Origin: Acidobacteriaceae bacterium
Lineage (GTDB): Bacteria > Acidobacteriota > Terriglobia > Terriglobales > Acidobacteriaceae
Length of the DNA: 64,000 nucleotides
Reading direction: 5' to 3'
Assembly (NCBI GenBank): GCA_025356095.1
Contig: JANXUR010000068.1
Location: forward strand, 1 to 64,000
The notes beneath the pieces are model-generated. The model was not told the DNA's origin, did no database searches, and was given only the letters and a program-made list of their open reading frames with translations. A program made the position numbers and the translations under genes. Positions 1 to 12,933 of this stretch are shown here, piece after piece (within the stretch, counting starts at the first letter, position 1; each line of letters starts with the position of its first letter).

Positions 1-3000
1 GTTCAGCAGTGGGCCGATGCTTCCAGCCTGACTAAAGGCGAGCTTCGCAATAGGTCCGACCGCCAAGTCGGGATACGAGCCGATACCGGCACCGTTGGCG
101 ACGCCCGCGTTATCCAGTACGCCTACTCCCGTGAAGCTCGCTCCGTTAATCACGCTGAAAGGCGTACCTTTTTGATAGACGGTTACTCCGGATAGTTCCC
201 AATGGCTGAGTAGCCGTTCGTCCCAGCGCGGGCCTTGAGTTTGCCACTCGCTCGGAACTGGTGAATCCGGTTCAGACTCGCCTTCCCACCCTCGGTAGAT
301 GTGTGCCCAATCCTTATGCGCGTAAGGGATTTGGTAGATGTAGCTGACGCTGAGTAAGTGGCGCTGGTCGAAATTTGAGCTCGCGCGATTCGTACGGATG
401 TCTGCAGAATTGACGAATGTGGCATCGGAGCGATCGGACGAGTCATCAATTGAGTGGCTGTAGCTGTAAGAAACACCCAACGTAAGTGGGGCAGAGGTAC
501 GCCTTAAGGTGGCTTGAAATGCGTTGTAGGATGAATTCGCGATATTTTCTAGAGAGTAGATGCGGCTAATGCCGTGGAAAGGCCGCAACTGGTCAGGATT
601 CGCCGGAATTGAACGCTCCGCCCCATAGCAGGAGGCCAAGAGGTTGGCGTAAGCAGGATCTCCTGCGCCTACACGCGCACCGCTGGTTATCAAGAAGAAG
701 CCTTGCTGGAGGGCGCAATCACCATTGGCCTGCTGCGTGGAAGCAATAATGGGCTCGTTAGGCGCAAATGGATTCAGCGCCCCTGTAAGTGGGGTCAACT
801 GATTAATTTGTCGTTGCGCTGTTAGGTGGGTACCTTTGCTGCCGACGTAGGCAAGTCCTGCAGTTACTGAGCGTACTAATTCGCGCTGCACGCCCAGGCT
901 CCACTGTTGAGAGTAAGGCCACACCGTCTTTTGCGGAATAGCTGTAAAGCTTGGAGCGTAGGCACCCGGACGGCCACAGTCCTGCGCAGCTTGGGTGAGC
1001 GGAGAGCCTCCACCGATGCAAGCCCAACTGGAAGGGAAGTTCTGGGTCAGGTTAAGTACTACTGGGGAGCTCGCTTCCAGCGACCCGGTATTGGCTTCGC
1101 TCCCTGTTCCGTGCTCATAGAACAAACCGTAACCTGCACGTATAGAAGTCTTGCCATCTCCAAAGGGATCCCATGCAAAGCCCAGTCGTGGCGCCCAGTT
1201 AACCAGATGCCCCTGCATACAGCTATCGGGCGTACCATTCAAGCCGCAGCGTACCAGTCCGTTCAGCAACCGGGGGTCAAGATTGTTTGTATCGAGTGGG
1301 ACGGGAGAACCGGAGTTAGCGTCGAGCAGTTGGCCGGTTATTGGGGTGAAAGTAACCTGACTCGCTAGCGACTGGCTGAAAGCGCTAGGGACAAAGTTAT
1401 AGGCATTGTTCCCCTGCTCGTGATAGGTTCCGAACAAACTCACGCGGAGACCTAAATTCACGGTTAACCTGCGAGTTACCTTCCAGTCATCTTGTATGTA
1501 GGGCTCCGCAATATGGTAGCGCTGGCGATAGCGAGATTGCGCACTATCCTGTTGAAAGCTGCGAACGCCGGTGGTGCTGCTCAAGAAGTCAGCGAAAGCA
1601 TTGCCCGTAGTATTCAGGTTATTCTGGTTTGTGAAGGTAATAATACCTTGAACATCGCCAGTGGCCGCGCCGATCGCAGAATTGTCTTGATTGCGCTGAT
1701 AGAAGATGAATTGTGTGCCCAGTTGAATGGTGTGCTTGCGAGCCGCCCAGCTAATGCTGTCGCCGAAGCTGTAAGTGGGGTTGGTATGATCCCACGGCGC
1801 ATAGGCTGAATCTGCGGCAAACCCGCTTCCGCCATAGGCTGCGTTGGTGCCGCCGATTACGATTCCGGGCAGCTTTCCGCCGAATCCGTTTTGGAATAGC
1901 GCTCCAATTGGGCAGTCAAGCGGCGCGTTTGGATTGGAGTTTCCTGCACAGGGCGCGTCGAGGAGCGCGGGACGGCCGTACTGCGCGCCGGGGCCACTTT
2001 GGCCGAAAAAGCGAATGTGGGCGTTCACATAGCTGAATGTTGCTTCATTCAACAGTTGGGGAGTGATGCTATACGAGAGTTTTGCAACGGCACTCGTGCC
2101 CGGTCCGTACGCGCGCTGCTGAATGGTAGGGAAACTGTTCTGAAGATAGCCATAGAGCGGAGCGTTTAAGGTCGCATTCCATTCGTCATGGATATAACGG
2201 ACGGTAGCCCGCAGTTGGTTACTGAAGCTATGGTCAATCCGGAAGAGTTCTTCGCGCCAATAAGTAGAAGGAGAGATGCTGGCGACGTAGCAATGTGGTA
2301 TTAGTTCGGAGATGCTGGAGTTACAGCCGGTGGTGGAAGTAGGCAGGGGAGTGACCCCGGTGGATAGAACGGCCAACGCGTTACGGTCCAATGAGCCGTT
2401 GACGTTTAAAAGATTGTTGCCGTCCAGGGCACGGAATACGCCGCCGCCCACCGCAGTACCTGGGCAATCCGGGAACTGGGAGCGGGTAAATGTTGCGCCT
2501 CCAGGCTGTATTTCTGGGCAAACGTCACTAAAGTCACCAGCGCGCTCAGCCTCCGTAGGGACAGCCTGATTGTATTGCGTCGGCGTTGTTTCCAGACGAA
2601 GTTCTTCAGAAAAGAAGAAGAAGGTCTTATCTTTCTTTTGATTGTAGTGTCCGGGAATGTAGAGCGGGCCACCAATTGTGCCGCCGAGATCATGACGGCG
2701 GTACAGCGGAGCACTGCTGGTCTCGTCAAAGTAGTTGCGGGCGTTAAAGTTCTCGTTGCGAAGAAATTCGTAGGCGTTGCCGTGGAAGCGGTCGCCGCCT
2801 GATTTTGTGGTGACGAGTACGGTGCCAGAGGCGGTGCGGCCGTATTGTGCGCCATAGTTCGAGGTTAGTACCTTGACCTCTTGAATGGCATCCAAACTAG
2901 GATAGACAATCAGGGTGCTTTCCGCACCGTTGAGCCCGGCATTCAGTACATCGGAGCCGTCAACGTCGAAGGTGTTGTATTCCACTCGGCCGCCGTTGAC

Positions 3001-3621
3001 GCTGTATTTAACGCTGCCGACCACGCCGACCTTCGCTTCATCTTGGCCAGTCTGGTTACTGACGCCGGGCGCGAGCGCAATCAATTGCGTAAAATTGCGG
3101 CCATTCAGGCCAAAACCAACGATTTCCTTCTGCGTAATGGTGCCAGAGACATCTGATTTCTCGGTATCTACCTTATCTACGTTATCCGCCTGCACGGTTT
3201 CTTGCTGAATGTCACCCTTGGGCTCCAGAGCTGCTTCAAGAGGTATCTCTTGTCCTGCTTCGAGTGCAAGGTCTTGTGCTACGAAGGGTTTAAAGCCAGC
3301 TGCTTCTATAGTAAGAGTGTACTTTCCGGCCGGGAGGTGAAAGCTATAGAGACCTGCACTGTCGCTAGAGGCTTGCTGCGTGCCTTGGCCAGTTAGTGTG
3401 AGCGTCGCGCCAGGAATCACGGCTCCGGTCTGGTCTGTCACCTTCACGGACAACGTAGCAGCGGATGCAGCTGGAACCGGCGGGGCCTGCTGGGCGAAAC
3501 CGGTGCTTAGTGTAAGTAGCGAAAGCGCGGTGATGGCCACAGCAGTGGCAAGCAAATAGTTGCGAATGAACCTACGGATACCCCACCCCCGAGTGCAATT
3601 GCAAAATTTCAGCGTAGGCAC
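1..3621 (-). CDS. TonB-dependent receptor, Oar-like, with N-terminal carboxypeptidase-regulatory-like domain (3' end beyond window)
   Basis: The reverse strand is open from a GTG at 3621 through position 1 (1207 codons) and runs off the left edge. I checked the frame at three distant landmarks (2799, 1770 and 180). The N-terminus has a signal peptide (RRFIRNYLLATAVAITAL, ending FAQQ), then a beta-sandwich carboxypeptidase-regulatory domain (VKVTDQTGAVIPGATLTL), then a plug region with GFGLNGRNFTQLIALAPGV and YGAQYGRTASGTVLVTTKSGG. A long outer-membrane barrel follows, with repeated aromatic strands such as SWAARKHTIQLGTQF. Such receptors import large substrates, often glycans or peptides, across the outer membrane using TonB energy; the substrate cannot be told here. 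The start is uncertain: the frame is closed by a TAG at 3655-3657, and GTG 3621 with AGGCGAGG upstream is the best candidate. The family is greatly expanded in Acidobacteria. Confidence 0.93.
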   Translation of the reverse strand, partial: MPTLKFCNCTRGWGIRRFIRNYLLATAVAITALSLLTLSTGFAQQAPPVPAASAATLSVKVTDQTGAVIPGATLTLTGQGTQQASSDSAGLYSFHLPAGKYTLTIEAAGFKPFVAQDLALEAGQEIPLEAALEPKGDIQQETVQADNVDKVDTEKSDVSGTITQKEIVGFGLNGRNFTQLIALAPGVSNQTGQDEAKVGVVGSVKYSVNGGRVEYNTFDVDGSDVLNAGLNGAESTLIVYPSLDAIQEVKVLTSNYGAQYGRTASGTVLVTTKSGGDRFHGNAYEFLRNENFNARNYFDETSSAPLYRRHDLGGTIGGPLYIPGHYNQKKDKTFFFFSEELRLETTPTQYNQAVPTEAERAGDFSDVCPEIQPGGATFTRSQFPDCPGTAVGGGVFRALDGNNLLNVNGSLDRNALAVLSTGVTPLPTSTTGCNSSISELIPHCYVASISPSTYWREELFRIDHSFSNQLRATVRYIHDEWNATLNAPLYGYLQNSFPTIQQRAYGPGTSAVAKLSYSITPQLLNEATFSYVNAHIRFFGQSGPGAQYGRPALLDAPCAGNSNPNAPLDCPIGALFQNGFGGKLPGIVIGGTNAAYGGSGFAADSAYAPWDHTNPTYSFGDSISWAARKHTIQLGTQFIFYQRNQDNSAIGAATGDVQGIITFTNQNNLNTTGNAFADFLSSTTGVRSFQQDSAQSRYRQRYHIAEPYIQDDWKVTRRLTVNLGLRVSLFGTYHEQGNNAYNFVPSAFSQSLASQVTFTPITGQLLDANSGSPVPLDTNNLDPRLLNGLVRCGLNGTPDSCMQGHLVNWAPRLGFAWDPFGDGKTSIRAGYGLFYEHGTGSEANTGSLEASSPVVLNLTQNFPSSWACIGGGSPLTQAAQDCGRPGAYAPSFTAIPQKTVWPYSQQWSLGVQRELVRSVTAGLAYVGSKGTHLTAQRQINQLTPLTGALNPFAPNEPIIASTQQANGDCALQQGFFLITSGARVGAGDPAYANLLASCYGAERSIPANPDQLRPFHGISRIYSLENIANSSYNAFQATLRRTSAPLTLGVSYSYSHSIDDSSDRSDATFVNSADIRTNRASSNFDQRHLLSVSYIYQIPYAHKDWAHIYRGWEGESEPDSPVPSEWQTQGPRWDERLLSHWELSGVTVYQKGTPFSVINGASFTGVGVLDNAGVANGAGIGSYPDLAVGPIAKLAFSQAGSIGPLLN

Positions 3622-6840: not shown

Positions 6841-7007
6841 CGCGCAACTGGATCGTCGCACGGGGCGATGGCGGTGGGACTGCGGCAGTGGGGTGCGTAA
6901 ACCCGTGCTGTTTGGCGGCGGATTGGGGAGTTCTCGCACCTCGCAGCATAGACCTGCGGTAAACTGAAGGTGCCATACGGTTTCTCCAATCTCGTGGTGT
7001 GGCCAGC

Positions 7008-7084
7008 GGCCCTGTAGCTCAGATGGATAGAGCAGCGGTTTCCTAAACCGAAGGTCGGCAGTTCGACTCTGCCCGGGGCCACCA
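7008..7084 (+). tRNA. tRNA-Arg (anticodon CCT)
   Basis: A full cloverleaf is readable. The acceptor GGCCCTG pairs with CGGGGCC, the D arm is TAGCTCAGATGGATAGAGC, the anticodon loop is TTCCTAA with CCT at positions 34-36, the T arm contains GTTCGACTC, and the terminal CCA is encoded (7082-7084). It reads AGG arginine codons. Confidence 0.97.
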
Positions 7085-7226
7085 TCCTCTTTTCATGTCG
7101 GTCAAGGGGCGTGGGTACAACGCAGCGGACGCGTCGGCCATCGCTCGGTTTGGGGCAGAATGTTGCCAGCGCAACGGATTGAACTGCGTCGAGGTACGAC
7201 CTTATTCAGCATAGAGGAGGCTCCGC

Positions 7227-7733
7227 ATTCCAGAACCTTGGCTCAGTGGCACCCGCAGCGATGTTCCTGCGATTCCGCGGGCGGTGTTGCACGCGCTTGA
7301 CCTTGCGCGCGCGGATTTGTGGAATTGGTGCGCGGCGCTTTCTTTGGGGCAGATTCATGCTTGGCCTGTGGGCGTAGCTTCCGTTGCCTTCCATCTGCGC
7401 CACATTGCGCGCAGCCTCGACCGCCTGCTGACTTACGCGGAAGGCGCGCCGCTCTCCGCACAGCAGATTGCCGCACAGAAGTCCGAGATGGATGCTAGCG
7501 AAACGCCAGCCGAGATTTTCGCCGAGCTGGAGGCTGCGCTAAAGCGAAGCGAAGCCCGCATCCTCGACCACGCCATGGCATCCTTGCAAAATTCCGCTTA
7601 TTGGGAGCAGGCGCGCAGTGTCGGTTCCCGCCAGTTGCCTACCACCCTAGGAGGGCTGCTGGTTCATGTGGCCGACCACACCCAGCGCCACGTGGGGCAG
7701 GCCATTACCACCGCCAAGCAAGTGGCGGACTAG
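7227..7733 (+). CDS. DinB-like four-helix protein, probable ATT start
   Basis: A 168-residue DinB/YfiT-superfamily protein. Histidines that normally bind the metal are seen in FHLRHIARSLDRL and HVADHTQRHVGQ. The family holds metal-dependent thiol transferases and stress-linked proteins; the exact reaction is unknown. The frame opens after a TAG at 7212-7214. No ATG, GTG or TTG occurs before GTG 7284, yet the sequence from ATT 7227 (PEPWLSGTRSDVPAIPRAVLHALDL) reads like the conserved N-terminus of these proteins, and a perfect AGGAGG lies six bases ahead of that ATT. I therefore place the start at ATT 7227. The shorter GTG start would remove the first part of helix 1 and has no ribosome site. 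Confidence 0.8.
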   Translation: MPEPWLSGTRSDVPAIPRAVLHALDLARADLWNWCAALSLGQIHAWPVGVASVAFHLRHIARSLDRLLTYAEGAPLSAQQIAAQKSEMDASETPAEIFAELEAALKRSEARILDHAMASLQNSAYWEQARSVGSRQLPTTLGGLLVHVADHTQRHVGQAITTAKQVAD

Positions 7734-7795
7734 CCTCTGTGCGGGCCAGCTCTTCGCTGCACCCATCCAAATCGTTATTCGCAACCGTATATCCA

Positions 7796-7847
7796 ATGGA
7801 GCAGTCTAATGAAGCAGTCAAATGAAGCTGTCTGATGAAGCAAGCTG
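7796..7847. repeat. Four 13-base imperfect tandem repeats
   Basis: Units ATGGAGCAGTCTA, ATGAAGCAGTCAA, ATGAAGCTGTCTG and ATGAAGCAAGCTG follow head to tail. The period of 13 is not a multiple of three, so it is not a coding repeat. It lies between the DinB-like gene and the TPR gene. Confidence 0.85.
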
Positions 7848-7887
7848 ACTAAGCACTCCGACCGCGCCGGCAACTCGGGCGTCCGGC

Positions 7888-9273
7888 ATGGAAACGGCGA
7901 TGAATTCAATGATGGCGATCCGCAATGCAACTTTCGGTGTGAGGGTCGGGGTAAGGGTTGGTCTGGCGCTGTGCGTCATGCTCACCTTGGCGACCCATGC
8001 TGCAACCGCCGAGCCGATGCCCGGCACCGATGGCTGGATCGCGACAGCCCAGAAGAAGGCCGCGGCGGCACCAAAAAATTCTGCGGCCTATGACGATTTG
8101 GGGCAGGCCTACTTCCAAAAAGCCCGCGAAACCGGCGACGCAGCTTTTTACCAACTCGCCGAAACCACGCTACAAAAAGCGCTTGCCCTTGCGGCGGACG
8201 ATCCCAATGAGCAAGCGGCATCGAAACCCTGCGTCCATCTGGCGCTTGTGTATATGGGCGAGCATCGTTTTCGTGACGCTCTTACCTACGCCGACCAATC
8301 GCTGTCCGGGGGTGTGGCGTCGCCCGAGGCGTTTGCACTGATGGGCGATGCCCACGCCGATCTCGGCCAATACGAAGAGGCAGAGGCGGATTACCGCAGC
8401 CTGGCGCAGATGGGGGCATTCTCGCGTTCGCCCCTGCAAATTGCCTACGTACACGATAGTCGTTTGTCGTACCTCAAATACATTCACGGAGATTCAGACG
8501 CAGCGATCGCTTTGATGAAGAGTGCGGTCTGGGCGGGGCTGCAGAGCCGTATTCCAGCGGAAAACATGGCATGGCTTTACTACGAACTGGGCGAGCGATA
8601 TTTTTCTACAGGGGATTTGAAGAATGCGGAACTGGCCTATGCCAGTGGGGTGCAAACGGACCCGAATCACTTTCGCGCACTGGCGGGGTTGGCGAAAGTC
8701 CGCGCCGCGCAAGGCCGCATGGATGAGGCGATTCAGCTTTATCAGCGCTCCCTCAATGTAGTGCCGATGCCTGCGTATCTCGCCGAACTTGGTGACGTGT
8801 ATCGCAAGGTGGGCAGGATGAAAGAAGCGCAGCAGCAATATGATCTTGTCGAATACATTGGCTACCTTAACAACATCAACAAGGTGCTGAATGGCAGAGA
8901 GTTGGCCGAGTTCTACGCCGACCACGATAGCAAGCTTGGCGAAGCGTTGACGTTGGCTCGCGAAGAGTTGGCTTTGCGGCAGGATGTGGTTACGTGGGAT
9001 GTGCTGGCATGGGTGCTGTACAAGAATCACAAGCTGCCCGAGGCAGCCGACGCCATGCAGCACGCCTTGGCCTACAAGACGAAAAACGCGTTGTTCTACT
9101 TCCATGCCGGCATGATCTACCGCAGCATGGGTGAGGAAGCCAAGGCGAGCCAGAGCTTCGCAGATGCGCTGAAGTTCAACCCGGCATTTCATGTGGTATT
9201 TGCGGAGGCGGCCGCGAATGCTGTCCGCGATTTGCACCAGAAGAACAATTCCCGCGAAAGTGTGAGCCGTTGA
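7888..9273 (+). CDS. Secreted TPR-repeat protein (461 aa)
   Basis: A signal sequence (VGLALCVMLTLATHAATA) is followed by at least seven tetratricopeptide helices pairs, for example AYDDLGQAYFQKARETGD, ALMGDAHADLGQYEEAEADY, ALAGLAKVRAAQGRMDEAIQLYQRSL and FYFHAGMIYRSMGEEAKASQSF. TPR arrays are protein-protein scaffolds; no catalytic domain is visible. In-frame starts at 7888, 7900 and 7909 are all possible and only change the n-region of the signal peptide. Acts in the periplasm or cell envelope by inference. It is followed by the nickel/cobalt transporter gene on the same strand, but no functional link is evident. Confidence 0.85.
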   Translation: METAMNSMMAIRNATFGVRVGVRVGLALCVMLTLATHAATAEPMPGTDGWIATAQKKAAAAPKNSAAYDDLGQAYFQKARETGDAAFYQLAETTLQKALALAADDPNEQAASKPCVHLALVYMGEHRFRDALTYADQSLSGGVASPEAFALMGDAHADLGQYEEAEADYRSLAQMGAFSRSPLQIAYVHDSRLSYLKYIHGDSDAAIALMKSAVWAGLQSRIPAENMAWLYYELGERYFSTGDLKNAELAYASGVQTDPNHFRALAGLAKVRAAQGRMDEAIQLYQRSLNVVPMPAYLAELGDVYRKVGRMKEAQQQYDLVEYIGYLNNINKVLNGRELAEFYADHDSKLGEALTLAREELALRQDVVTWDVLAWVLYKNHKLPEAADAMQHALAYKTKNALFYFHAGMIYRSMGEEAKASQSFADALKFNPAFHVVFAEAAANAVRDLHQKNNSRESVSR

Positions 9274-9364
9274 GGCCGATGCTGAGGGCGGCATTGCCCC
9301 CATGCGAAAATTGCACAATCAAGTGCAGACTCTGCCCCCTGACGGCTGTTACCCTAGGAGTTCC

Positions 9365-11827
9365 GTGCCTACGATTCTGACAAGACGGTTACGCGTTTTC
9401 GCCCTGGGGTTTTTGCTGGTGATTGCCGCCACCCTGCCCAAGTTGGCTTTGGCGCATCCCATGGGAAACTTCAGCGTGAACCATTATTCTCGGGTTGAGG
9501 TGAAGCCCGACCGCGTGGACGTGATCTACCTGCTCGATATCGCGGAGATTCCAACCTATCAGGAGATGCGTGCGGATGGCATCGAGGCCAATCCTGATGA
9601 CCCCAAGGTGAAGGATTACGGCGAGCGCCGCGCCCAGATTTTTAAGGATGGGCTAAGCTTGCAGATAGATGGCAAAGCCATTCCGCTGCGTCTGCTTTCG
9701 CACAGCATACTGTTTCCAGCAGGTGCTGGCGGATTGCCTACCATGAAGTTTGGCTTATTCCTAAGTGCGAAGCTGCCCCCTGGAAAACCGGGCGGGGCCG
9801 CGCATCTGCATTTTGAAGACACCAACTTTGCAGGTCGCGCGGGTTGGAAGGAAGTAATTGCAGCAGGAAAGGGAATTACCTTCACCAGTAGCAGTGTTCC
9901 CGCACAAGACCGCAGTGCCGAATTGAGTAACTACCCTACGGATATGCTCAACAGCCCGCCGCAGGTGGTGGAGGCGACTGTGGAGTTCCCGTTTGCGGCG
10001 CCTGAAACTATTATCTCCAAAACAGTTCCCAAAGTTGCGACAGAGGCTGGTGTGCAGGCTGCATCAGTGCCCCCCGCATCAGCGGCTGCCGTGGCAGTTG
10101 CATCGAGTGCGCAAGCGGCTGCATCCGCTGCCAGCACTGCGGCCGCGCCGCCCGCTATTGTGTTGAAGGCCAATCAGCAGGCCACGCCGCGCGATGCGTT
10201 CACGCAACTTATTCAGTCGAATAACCTTAGCTGGTGGTTTCTGCTGACTGCAGCTCTACTCGCGGCGGGCTTGGGCGCACTGCATGCGCTGGAACCCGGC
10301 CACGGCAAGACGATTGTTGCATCGTACCTTGTAGGTACCAGCGGCAAACCTCGCCATGCAGTGTTCCTGGGACTCATCGTCACCGCCGCCCACACGGCTG
10401 GGGTGTATCTGCTGGGGGCGGTTACGCTCTACGCATCCCGCTATATTGTGCCAGAGCAACTCTATCCGTGGCTTGGCGCTATCTCTGGACTTACCATTAC
10501 TGTGCTGGCAGTAACTCTACTACTCCGCCGCTGGACGGGCGAGTCTCTGGATCACTCGCATGTGCCGGGCGAGGCGCACAGTCATTTCAGTGTTTCCAGT
10601 TTCTTCAAGCGCAAGCAGAGTGCCAGTGACGCAGGCGTGGCGGCTTCTGGTTCGTCGTGTACACCATCCGCAGCGCAACCCGACGCGCGGATTGACGCGC
10701 CAAGCCCCAGCGTTTCCCTGCGCCAGTTACTCATTCTTGGCGTGACTGGCGGGATGGTCCCATGTCCGGCAGCGCTGGTGGTGCTGCTGAGTGCGGTCTC
10801 GCTGCACCGCACCGGCTTCGGACTGTTTTTAATCGTCTCATTTAGTCTGGGGTTGGCGGCGGTGCTGATCGGTATTGGCTTAATGATGGTCTCGGCGGGC
10901 AAAGCCATGGCGCGATTCGGGCCGCGGTTTAGCGCGGAGAGTCCGCTGATTACGCGCTGGCTGCCATTGGCTTCGGCCATCATCATGGGACTGATCGGGC
11001 TGGGCATTGCCGGGCAGGCGATTGCCTCCACGCCGCTGGCTGCTGACTTTATCGCTGCGATTCGCTCTACGTCATTTGCGGTGGTCGCGTTGCTCGGGCT
11101 GTTTCTGGGGATGCGCCACTCCACCGACCCCGATCACGTTGTCGCCGTCACCACGATTGTCTCTAAACAGCGCCGCATCTCTAGCGCGGTCATGGTCGGC
11201 TGCCTCTGGGGTATCGGACATACCTTCACCATAGTGGTGGTCGGATCGGCCATCATTTTATTTGGCTTGGTCATTCCGCCGCGGGTTGGACTTTCCATGG
11301 AGTTTAGCGTCGCGCTGATGCTGATTTTGCTAGGCCTGCTAAATCTTACCGGGCTGATGCAGAAGATTACGGCAGCATTTACCCCGGGTGCGAAGTCTGC
11401 CGAGGCTGTGCCTGAGATGAATGCTGGCGTTCAGTCGCCTGCGACCAGTAAGTCAGACTCTCTGCTTGACCGCCTGCTGGGCCGCTTTGGTTTGTATCAG
11501 ATGGTGCGGCCGCTACTGATTGGCACGGTGCACGGTCTGGCCGGTTCCGCAGCGGTGGCGTTGCTGGTACTCTCTACCATCAAGTCCACCACCTGGGCCG
11601 TAGCCTATCTGCTTATCTTTGGTCTTGGCACCGTCTTCGGCATGATGCTGATTACGCTGATTATTGCGCTGCCCTTCGTCTACACCGAAGGCCGCTTTTT
11701 GTCGCTCAATCGGCATTTAGCCACCGCTTCGGGCTTGGTCAGTTTTGCGTTTGGGCTCTTCCTTGTCTATCAAATTGGCTTTTCCGACGGTTTATTCACC
11801 GCTCACCCCACTTGGACACCCCAGTAA
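9365..11827 (+). CDS. Fused nickel/cobalt transporter: extracytoplasmic domain + NicO/RcnA-like + NiCoT-like module
   Basis: Starting at GTG 9365 (CTAGGAG upstream) the product has 820 residues. Residues about 1-30 are a signal/anchor; 30-200 form an extracytoplasmic beta domain beginning HPMGNFSVNHYS, common in front of NicO proteins. From about 288 comes a NicO/RcnA-type membrane unit with HALEPGHGKT, a His-rich loop (DHSHVPGEAHSH) and GGMVPCPAALVVLL. From about 568 comes a second membrane unit with RHSTDPDHVVAV, the H-x4-DH metal motif of the NiCoT/HoxN type, and WGIGHTFTIVVVG. Each module is normally a separate protein of about 250-350 residues. I infer Ni2+ or Co2+ movement across the inner membrane; direction is unknown. 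No urease or hydrogenase genes are nearby. Confidence 0.85.
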   Translation: MPTILTRRLRVFALGFLLVIAATLPKLALAHPMGNFSVNHYSRVEVKPDRVDVIYLLDIAEIPTYQEMRADGIEANPDDPKVKDYGERRAQIFKDGLSLQIDGKAIPLRLLSHSILFPAGAGGLPTMKFGLFLSAKLPPGKPGGAAHLHFEDTNFAGRAGWKEVIAAGKGITFTSSSVPAQDRSAELSNYPTDMLNSPPQVVEATVEFPFAAPETIISKTVPKVATEAGVQAASVPPASAAAVAVASSAQAAASAASTAAAPPAIVLKANQQATPRDAFTQLIQSNNLSWWFLLTAALLAAGLGALHALEPGHGKTIVASYLVGTSGKPRHAVFLGLIVTAAHTAGVYLLGAVTLYASRYIVPEQLYPWLGAISGLTITVLAVTLLLRRWTGESLDHSHVPGEAHSHFSVSSFFKRKQSASDAGVAASGSSCTPSAAQPDARIDAPSPSVSLRQLLILGVTGGMVPCPAALVVLLSAVSLHRTGFGLFLIVSFSLGLAAVLIGIGLMMVSAGKAMARFGPRFSAESPLITRWLPLASAIIMGLIGLGIAGQAIASTPLAADFIAAIRSTSFAVVALLGLFLGMRHSTDPDHVVAVTTIVSKQRRISSAVMVGCLWGIGHTFTIVVVGSAIILFGLVIPPRVGLSMEFSVALMLILLGLLNLTGLMQKITAAFTPGAKSAEAVPEMNAGVQSPATSKSDSLLDRLLGRFGLYQMVRPLLIGTVHGLAGSAAVALLVLSTIKSTTWAVAYLLIFGLGTVFGMMLITLIIALPFVYTEGRFLSLNRHLATASGLVSFAFGLFLVYQIGFSDGLFTAHPTWTPQ

Positions 11828-11925
11828 GCAAATCGGCACCGTTGCCTGCAAATTGCTGATTTCTGCTAGAGGCAACTCCAGTCGCTTGATACAATAAAGG
11901 CTTAGCCCAAGAGGAGCTTTTTCCC

Positions 11926-12933
11926 ATGCACCCTGCCGACCCTCAGGAAATTCTGATTCGCTACTCCATTGTGGTGCCGTTGCACAATGAGTGCGAGAAC
12001 GTGCCCGACCTCTACTCGCGCCTGAAGACGGTGATGGAGGCGCTGGGCGAGCCCTTTGAGTTGGTGCTGGTGGATGATGGGAGCTCGGACCAGACCTTCG
12101 GTCTGCTGGAGGAGATTGCCTCGATTGACAGCCGGGTTACGGTAGTGAAGTTACGGCGCAACTTTGGCCAGACCTCGGCCTTAGCCGCTGGCTTTGACCA
12201 TTCCCGCGGAGAGTTTGTCATCGCCATGGATGGCGACCTGCAGCATGATCCCGCCGATATTCCAATCTTCATTGAGAAAATTGACGAAGGTTATGACATT
12301 GTCAGCGGCTGGCGCAAGGTTCGTATTGATAACTACTGGATTCGCCGCTTTCCCTCGCGCATCGCCAACTGGCTGATGGCCAGGCTGAGCGGAGTGGACA
12401 TTCACGACTTTGGCACGACGTTCAAGGCCTATCGCCGCGAAATTTTGCAGCAGATTCCGCTGTATGGCGAGCTGCATCGCTTTATCCCGGCGCTGGCCTC
12501 GTGGCACGGTGCCAGGATCTGCGAAGTGCCCATCCGCAACGTGATGCGCGAACGCGGCGTCTCGCACTACGGCATCTCACGCACTTTCCGCGTGTTTTTT
12601 GACCTGTTGACGATTCGCTTCTTGCTCAAATACCGCTCCCGTCCCCTGCATTTTTTCGGCACCTGGGGCATGGTGAGCATGATCATTGGTCTCGGCACTG
12701 GCACCTTCCTGATTATCGAAAAACTCATCCACAAGCATGCGCAGATTATGGTCTCGCACGGACCGCTGATTATTTTTGCCGCCGTCGCCATTCAAGCCGG
12801 ACTGATGATGCTTGGCATCGGCCTGCTTGGTGAGATGCAGGTGCGACATTACCACGAGCCTGCGCAGCGCGCTCCCTATAGCGTGGATAAGGTGTTACGT
12901 GCGGAAAGCGAAGAATCCGCGATACAGGAGTAG
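11926..12933 (+). CDS. Family 2 glycosyltransferase, DPM1/GtrB-like polyprenol-phosphate sugar transferase
   Basis: A 335-residue protein. The GT-A domain starts YSIVVPLHNECENVPDLY, carries VLVDDGSSDQT and the metal-binding AMDGDLQHDP, and has the family-typical LRRNFGQTSALAAGFDHS. Two C-terminal membrane segments (MVSMIIGLGTGTFLII and LIIFAAVAIQAGLMMLGIGLLGE) anchor it, as in GtrB/ArnC-like enzymes. It probably transfers a sugar from a nucleotide donor to polyprenyl phosphate at the inner membrane for later use in the envelope. The ATG has AGGAG nine bases upstream. A rho-independent terminator follows at 12954. Confidence 0.88.
   Translation: MHPADPQEILIRYSIVVPLHNECENVPDLYSRLKTVMEALGEPFELVLVDDGSSDQTFGLLEEIASIDSRVTVVKLRRNFGQTSALAAGFDHSRGEFVIAMDGDLQHDPADIPIFIEKIDEGYDIVSGWRKVRIDNYWIRRFPSRIANWLMARLSGVDIHDFGTTFKAYRREILQQIPLYGELHRFIPALASWHGARICEVPIRNVMRERGVSHYGISRTFRVFFDLLTIRFLLKYRSRPLHFFGTWGMVSMIIGLGTGTFLIIEKLIHKHAQIMVSHGPLIIFAAVAIQAGLMMLGIGLLGEMQVRHYHEPAQRAPYSVDKVLRAESEESAIQE

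Follow-up and report, generated by a model that had tools for sequence, protein, structure and literature searches.

Described metal permeases and the protein studied here

Structure 9GCE, described in 2025, is the copper-bound Ang-1 'anglerase' domain, which is attached to a HupE/UreJ-2 permease (PMC12537917). As set out in the main text of that report, anglerases have a signal peptide followed by a fully conserved histidine (His1), share a chain with their permease and bind copper or nickel, and the authors propose that the domains feed metal to this permease. RbAng-1a is described there as a beta-sandwich with three helices between strands 2 and 3. Ang-1 is found mainly in Pseudomonadota and Ang-2 in Actinomycetota, and the main text contains no mention of NicO, RcnA or DUF4331 (PMC12537917). 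E. coli RcnA is described as an exporter (PMC11719643). UreH is treated as a separate family of putative secondary nickel transporters (PMC2667541) and as distantly related to the NiCoTs (PMC8487243).

The gene analysed here lies in a stretch of 64,000 nucleotides from an Acidobacteriaceae genome (contig JANXUR010000068.1), referred to as the window. With Ang-1 and Ang-2 its product shares a signal peptide extending up to a conserved histidine, a C-terminal metal-type permease in the same chain and, as predicted here, a periplasmic beta-sandwich in which helices separate strands 2 and 3. However, the permease consists of two NicO units (PF03824) rather than a HupE/UreJ-2 permease (PF13795), the putative partners are DUF4331 and TPR proteins, and the outer domain does not clearly resemble the Ang domains in sequence. 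Relatives of the outer domain, among the best 80 of 212, are spread across many phyla, unlike Ang-1 and Ang-2. The first unit aligns with RcnA (PRK10019) and has a His-bearing loop in common with it, whereas the periplasmic domain and the second unit are additions. The second unit is NicO-like, as are the UreH-type putative nickel permeases, and some of its relatives are found beside hyp genes; unlike those permeases, it is fused to or paired with a NicO unit. It shares a His-x4-Asp-His motif with HoxN, HupN and NixA, yet it scores far under the NiCoT cut-off, and true NiCoTs are separate genes. The same outer domain with a NicO unit is present in a Streptomyces 'nickel transporter' (L172) and a Nostoc 'TauE/SafE' protein (L171). 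In these Nostoc and Streptomyces plasmid records the gene follows a DUF4331 gene and then a hypothetical or TPR gene, but the chain lacks the second unit of the window protein.

The combination of an anglerase-like capture domain, a paired NicO permease and a DUF4331/TPR cluster was not found in print by our searches, and a literature search for NiCoT/RcnA fusions, with most subscription journals outside its coverage, showed none on such a fusion among the titles listed. The locus appears to be a genuine metal-handling system that has hardly been described, located beside genes of unknown function.

One reading frame encodes an outer domain and two transporter units

An uninterrupted frame (9302-11827, + strand) encodes 841 amino acids from its first ATG. 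A GTG at position 9365 is the likelier start, giving 820 amino acids; the AGGAG at 9356-9360 (+) is its likely ribosome-binding site. The first-pass annotation had described one frame joining an extracytoplasmic domain to two transporter units, and this description is borne out. The product begins with a putative signal peptide of 30 residues (9365-9454, +), which has KLALA at its end and is followed by a histidine, an Ala/Gly-His junction common to the relatives. After the ALA end, the mature N-terminus of the 820-residue product reads HPMGNFSVNH. This histidine is residue 1 of the extracytoplasmic, anglerase-like domain (9455-9994, +). An Ala/Pro-rich linker follows (9995-10189, +), for most of which model confidence is low.

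Transporter unit 1 (10190-11029, +), the helices of which were read as six transmembrane segments, contains the motif HALEPGH (10283-10303, +) and a loop with DHSHVPGEAHSH (10535-10717, +), predicted to be cytoplasmic from the sequence, the model and the loop charges. Its GGxxPCPAAL motif (10748-10777) is kept in 8 of 8 aligned fused proteins. Transporter unit 2 (11054-11824, +) contains HSTDPDH (11117-11137, +; RHSTDPDH in context), which is the H-x4-DH motif noted in the first-pass annotation. A TPR protein with a signal peptide is encoded 91 bases upstream of the permease gene (7888-9273, +), and the window has a tRNA gene (7008-7081, +) some 0.8 kb further upstream of this TPR gene.

Both transporter units belong to the NicO family

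Both units exceeded the gathering cut-off of PF03824 (NicO; 27.7 bits), unit 1 with 52.7 bits and unit 2 with 33.0 bits. Among named models RcnA (PRK10019) was the best fit of unit 1, which covers model positions 4-272 of 283; the scores (133.8 bits for the whole protein, 136.1 bits for unit 1 alone) are below the curated cut-off of 195 bits. The earlier reading of unit 1 as an RcnA-like NicO transporter stands. The loop that had been called His-rich is present, but with 4 histidines in 67 residues the term is generous for the window copy. Unit 1 also weakly matched the DsbD_2 family (E 0.012), as did the Nostoc and Streptomyces relatives.

Unit 2 had been regarded as NiCoT-like. TIGR00802 (NiCoT; curated cut-off 333.05 bits) gave 20.6 bits for unit 2, a weak resemblance across 190 residues. 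As a positive control, genuine NiCoTs encoded by separate genes were found in 12 of 100 family genomes (own genome included) with 349.7-425.6 bits. Consequently, unit 2 as a NiCoT was ruled out. Instead, it is predicted to be a UreH-like NicO paralogue of unit 1. The libraries used hold no UreH model; by tblastn unit 2 is about 30% identical (E 3e-9) to a Bradyrhizobium protein annotated as 'urease accessory protein', which with 24.3 bits itself stays below the NicO cut-off and is located after hypB. When the units were compared as profiles (probability 92%, E 6e-7), their histidine motifs were superposed. The units are thus homologous by this comparison, and the fusion is predicted to join two diverged paralogues, not members of two different transporter families as first proposed. 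No further NicO or HupE/UreJ-2 (PF13795) matches were found in the own genome.

If the outer domain is placed outside, six helices per unit give both units the same predicted orientation. Lysine and arginine residues in the predicted inner versus outer loops number 12 versus 3 for unit 1 and 9 versus 3 for unit 2. Opposite insertion of the units was considered and is disfavoured by these charges, counted on the model helices. The first-pass annotation had raised the question of a two-way or regulated metal valve, in which unit 1 would export and unit 2 would import. Such an arrangement could account for two units that diverged yet were kept together across many lineages; however, no positive support for it emerged, and opposite transport directions find no backing because the units are homologous, fall into one Pfam family and are predicted to be parallel. 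As unit 2 is not a NiCoT either, we consider a valve very improbable.

The outer domain is predicted to be anglerase-like

The outer domain is the most informative part of the protein. Nothing in Pfam or NCBIfam matched it above cut-off (best Myc_N, 12.1 bits versus 24.4), sequence searches of solved structures with the window protein or its outer domain gave nothing useful, and profile searches against the PDB gave no match of the outer domain to 9GCE. When the mature protein was modelled with AlphaFold2 (97 rows; pLDDT 82.2, pTM 0.69), the outer domain was confidently predicted to be an Ig-like beta-sandwich, with two helices, compared with three in RbAng-1a, between strands 2 and 3. The best VIA-align match of the predicted model was 9GCE (Z 8.6, rmsd 5.6, 146 residues), a score barely higher than the Z of 7 to 8 that is typical of a best match without a clear relative. 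Among the next rows were the zinc-binding ZrgA (Z 7.3 and 7.2) and PA4063 (Z 6.8), interspersed with unrelated transporters. Foldseek placed 9GCE at rank 2 (prob 1.00, E 9e-3), with an E of at least 0.001 for every row. Comparison of the outer domain with six HupE/UreJ-2 outer domains by hhalign gave a probability of 0.1%, and three of those six gave a weak collinear match (E 0.015, probability 3%). Judged by its modelled fold, the domain is best termed anglerase-like; we do not call it an anglerase.

The junction of signal peptide and HP[M/L]GN was present in 77 of 77 readable relatives among the best 80 of 212, preceded by Ala in 75 and by Gly in 2. The N-termini of three (L083, L089 and L101) were unreadable, hence 77 of 80, and the cleavage site was read from the sequence rather than by SignalP. 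His1 is contained in one of the scan patterns; 24 of the 77 relatives entered via the other pattern, AEIPT[YF]QE. Mature Asp28, Glu31 and Glu133 are invariant in 61 of 61 aligned outer domains (the window protein and 60 chosen from the best 80 of 212, with rows cut at His1). Of these residues, Glu31 is part of a scan pattern; Asp28 and Glu133 are outside the patterns. By analogy with the anglerases, the outer domain is probably metal-grabbing.

DUF4331 and TPR genes accompany the permease gene

In most relatives with enough flanking sequence a DUF4331 and a TPR gene lie beside the permease gene. Of the scanned loci, 69 had 1.4 kb or more of upstream sequence, and in 52 of these a related TPR gene was found directly upstream on the same strand. 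Among 35 loci with 5 kb on each side, a TPR gene was present in 30, DUF4331 in 26, both in 26 and neither in 5; on the same strand within 5 kb, the counts were 28 for TPR and 24 for DUF4331. Fourteen of these 35 loci are fused, and they carry TPR in 14/14 and DUF4331 in 13/14 cases. From gene order, the locus appears to belong to a conserved cluster that encodes a secreted DUF4331 protein, a periplasmic TPR protein, an Ang-like/NicO permease and a UreH-like permease. Across the 100 family genomes, DUF4331 occurred in 9 of 9 module genomes, fused or split, versus 12 of 91 others (Fisher p 1.5e-7, a value that ignores kinship). In the own genome the DUF4331 gene (G000:C119:7344-8693) is located on another contig than the permease gene, with a secreted TPR gene of its own downstream. 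Its contig also carries an outer-membrane beta-barrel gene (C119:102-2642), and the window has one at 1-3621. Around standalone unit 2 genes (12 loci, L039-L050) no neighbour grouped with the TPR or DUF4331 genes of the module. A TonB-receptor-like outer-membrane protein was considered as a fifth part, similar proteins being present at 12 of 80 loci with the module and at none of 12 control loci; it was not counted as a part because the own genome has 33 matching stretches of that family.

A free N-terminal X-X-His is a chelator of Cu(II) and Ni(II). In 44 of 51 DUF4331 frames [S/A][S/D]H stands right after an Ala/Gly junction, and the other 7 frames are without an N-terminus; in the DUF4331 alignment H3 is invariant by construction, because the rows were cut at that point. 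The DUF4331 structure model (pLDDT 82.8) found no convincing match among the PDB rows listed (Foldseek first row E 0.046, prob 0.06; best Z 5.5), although its fold may be a known one. To our knowledge, no activity or fold of DUF4331 is known, and a literature search on DUF4331/PF14224, with most subscription journals outside its coverage, returned nothing. The gene order DUF4331-TPR-permease, together with the X-X-His terminus, could be read as a route for metal loading, in which the permease supplies the periplasm so that DUF4331 is metallated with the help of the TPR protein. However, the searches provided no activity or fold for DUF4331, and it occurs without the module in the 12 of 91 genomes given above. 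Metal loading is, in our judgement, an unlikely purpose of the cluster.

Proposed metal capture and direction of transport

A capture-and-transport system for nickel, cobalt or copper is the best explanation of the locus; both the metal and the direction are what we infer, as are metal binding itself and the partnership of the proteins. In the form that we favour, tentatively and at a little less than an even chance, the gene product would be an envelope metal-capture permease with a pseudo-dimer of transporter units, DUF4331 and TPR partners and net uptake. Removal of the signal peptide would expose a histidine at the N-terminus of a small beta-sandwich domain in the periplasm; this histidine may bind a divalent ion of Ni, Cu or Co and pass it on to the two-unit NicO-type permease. 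The RcnA-like unit 1 and the UreH-like unit 2, in the same orientation, would act jointly as a pseudo-dimer. As the units are two adjacent genes in many relatives, the fusion would only fix a 1:1 pair. The secreted X-X-His DUF4331 protein and the periplasmic TPR protein may capture or relay the metal, or receive it.

We judge uptake more probable than export, mainly on account of the outer capture domain and of the paralogues linked to hyp genes. In G071 (L039:3-4813), which has the fusion as well, a hypABCDE-type cluster closes with a standalone unit-2 paralogue; in G031 a paralogue adjoins hypA and a hypB/ureG-type gene, and in G041, G052 and G056 one lies within 6 kb of hypD. Most standalone unit 2 copies examined have no hyp neighbours. 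HypD was present in 18 of 31 genomes with standalone unit 2 versus 33 of the other 69 (p 0.39), and in 4 of 9 module genomes, and so showed no association with either.

Alternatively, both units might form an efflux pump that exports surplus nickel or cobalt to the periplasm, where the outer domain, TPR protein and DUF4331 bind the expelled metal. Consistent with efflux, the named model closest to unit 1 is RcnA, an exporter in E. coli, and the His-bearing loop is predicted to be cytoplasmic; in the split pair of G088 (L037:3355-5883) the loops of both units are very His-rich, far above the window protein. The own genome gave no [NiFe]-hydrogenase match over the cut-off and no urease alpha or HypD match, therefore an obvious nickel consumer is missing, which speaks against simple nickel supply as the role of the system. 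However, the RcnA score stays under its cut-off, no metal-sensing regulator gene was found among the seven window neighbours scanned, and some unit-2 paralogues occur within or close to hyp clusters, a setting in which one expects uptake. We regard efflux as unlikely. The Ni/Co riboswitch that the first-pass annotation had suggested looking for was absent from the window at gathering level and from positions 7000-12000 at E <= 1.

A fuller version of net uptake is conceivable, though unlikely as a whole. It would be a widespread, previously undescribed four-part system, in which DUF4331 is a high-affinity scavenger with an ATCUN-like X-X-His, the TPR protein is a dock, the outer domain is a third anglerase class with an N-terminal His, and a heteromeric NicO pair, separate or fused and with more than one fusion or fission, works as one asymmetric transporter. 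If capture and transport by this protein are true, the anglerase principle of an N-terminal histidine fishing metal before a permease would apply to another permease family as well, and across many phyla. DUF4331 would gain its first functional handle, and a natural fused pair would be at hand for asking whether transporters of the NicO type function as heterodimers and which way the metal moves.

The fusion recurs in other bacteria

Among 100 family genomes, own included, the full architecture was found in the own genome and in G006, G035, G039, G042, G053, G064 and G071. In G088 it is split into a pair of adjacent frames with 42 bases between them. Seven other fused proteins aligned with the window protein keep the architecture at 51-56% identity. 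A standalone unit 2 gene, as an additional or the sole form, occurred in 31 of the 100 genomes (matches at E < 1e-18, partial ones included, counted by hand). The scan of named genomes for the outer domain with unit 1 kept the best 80 of 212 relatives, comprising 24 fused proteins, 23 with a separate downstream unit 2 and 30 without one just downstream; two further rows were ended by a contig end and one (L101) was dropped as broken. Together with 15 more proteins (the window protein and 14 loci of other genomes), the scan rows form a set of 94, with 37 fused, 24 adjacent, 31 without unit 2 and 2 undecidable because of a contig end. One adjacent pair in this set (L064, L138) is identical.

The fused form is present in Acidobacteriaceae KBS 83 and Granulicella aggregans M8UP14, the adjacent form in Edaphobacter aggregans DSM 19364, and fused relatives occur in six other Acidobacteriota families (f33, f57, f61, f70, f71 and f78). 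Their sources are isolate genomes, a 7.1 Mb contig and MAGs. With the second unit an adjacent separate gene in 24 of 94 proteins, a sequencing error might join two neighbours into one frame. However, the frame has no stop, and its codon-position GC is coding-like across the junction. The stop-codon error that the first-pass annotation had named as a refutation is excluded by the 36 further fused proteins, isolate genomes included, and the chance of an artefact is practically negligible. The whole fused architecture is not a product of chance but a real fusion, and the recurrence of the same arrangement in other bacteria points to a genuine system and not to a slip in sequencing.

On a quick tree of the outer domain and unit 1, the fused state required 6 changes, 5 of them forced by starred branches, and a single clade of all fused rows was rejected (AU p 1.9e-17; 37 versus 55 rows). 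These results indicate that fusion and/or fission occurred more than once, with gain and loss not separable on this quick tree. The L064/L138 sequence (genome G478) has a 9-base split within a fused clade, perhaps a recent fission or an assembly error. Two records, L073 (Nevskia soli) and L075 (Rhodanobacteraceae), are fusions located within an Acidobacteriota clade, and perhaps represent misnamed bins or transfer.
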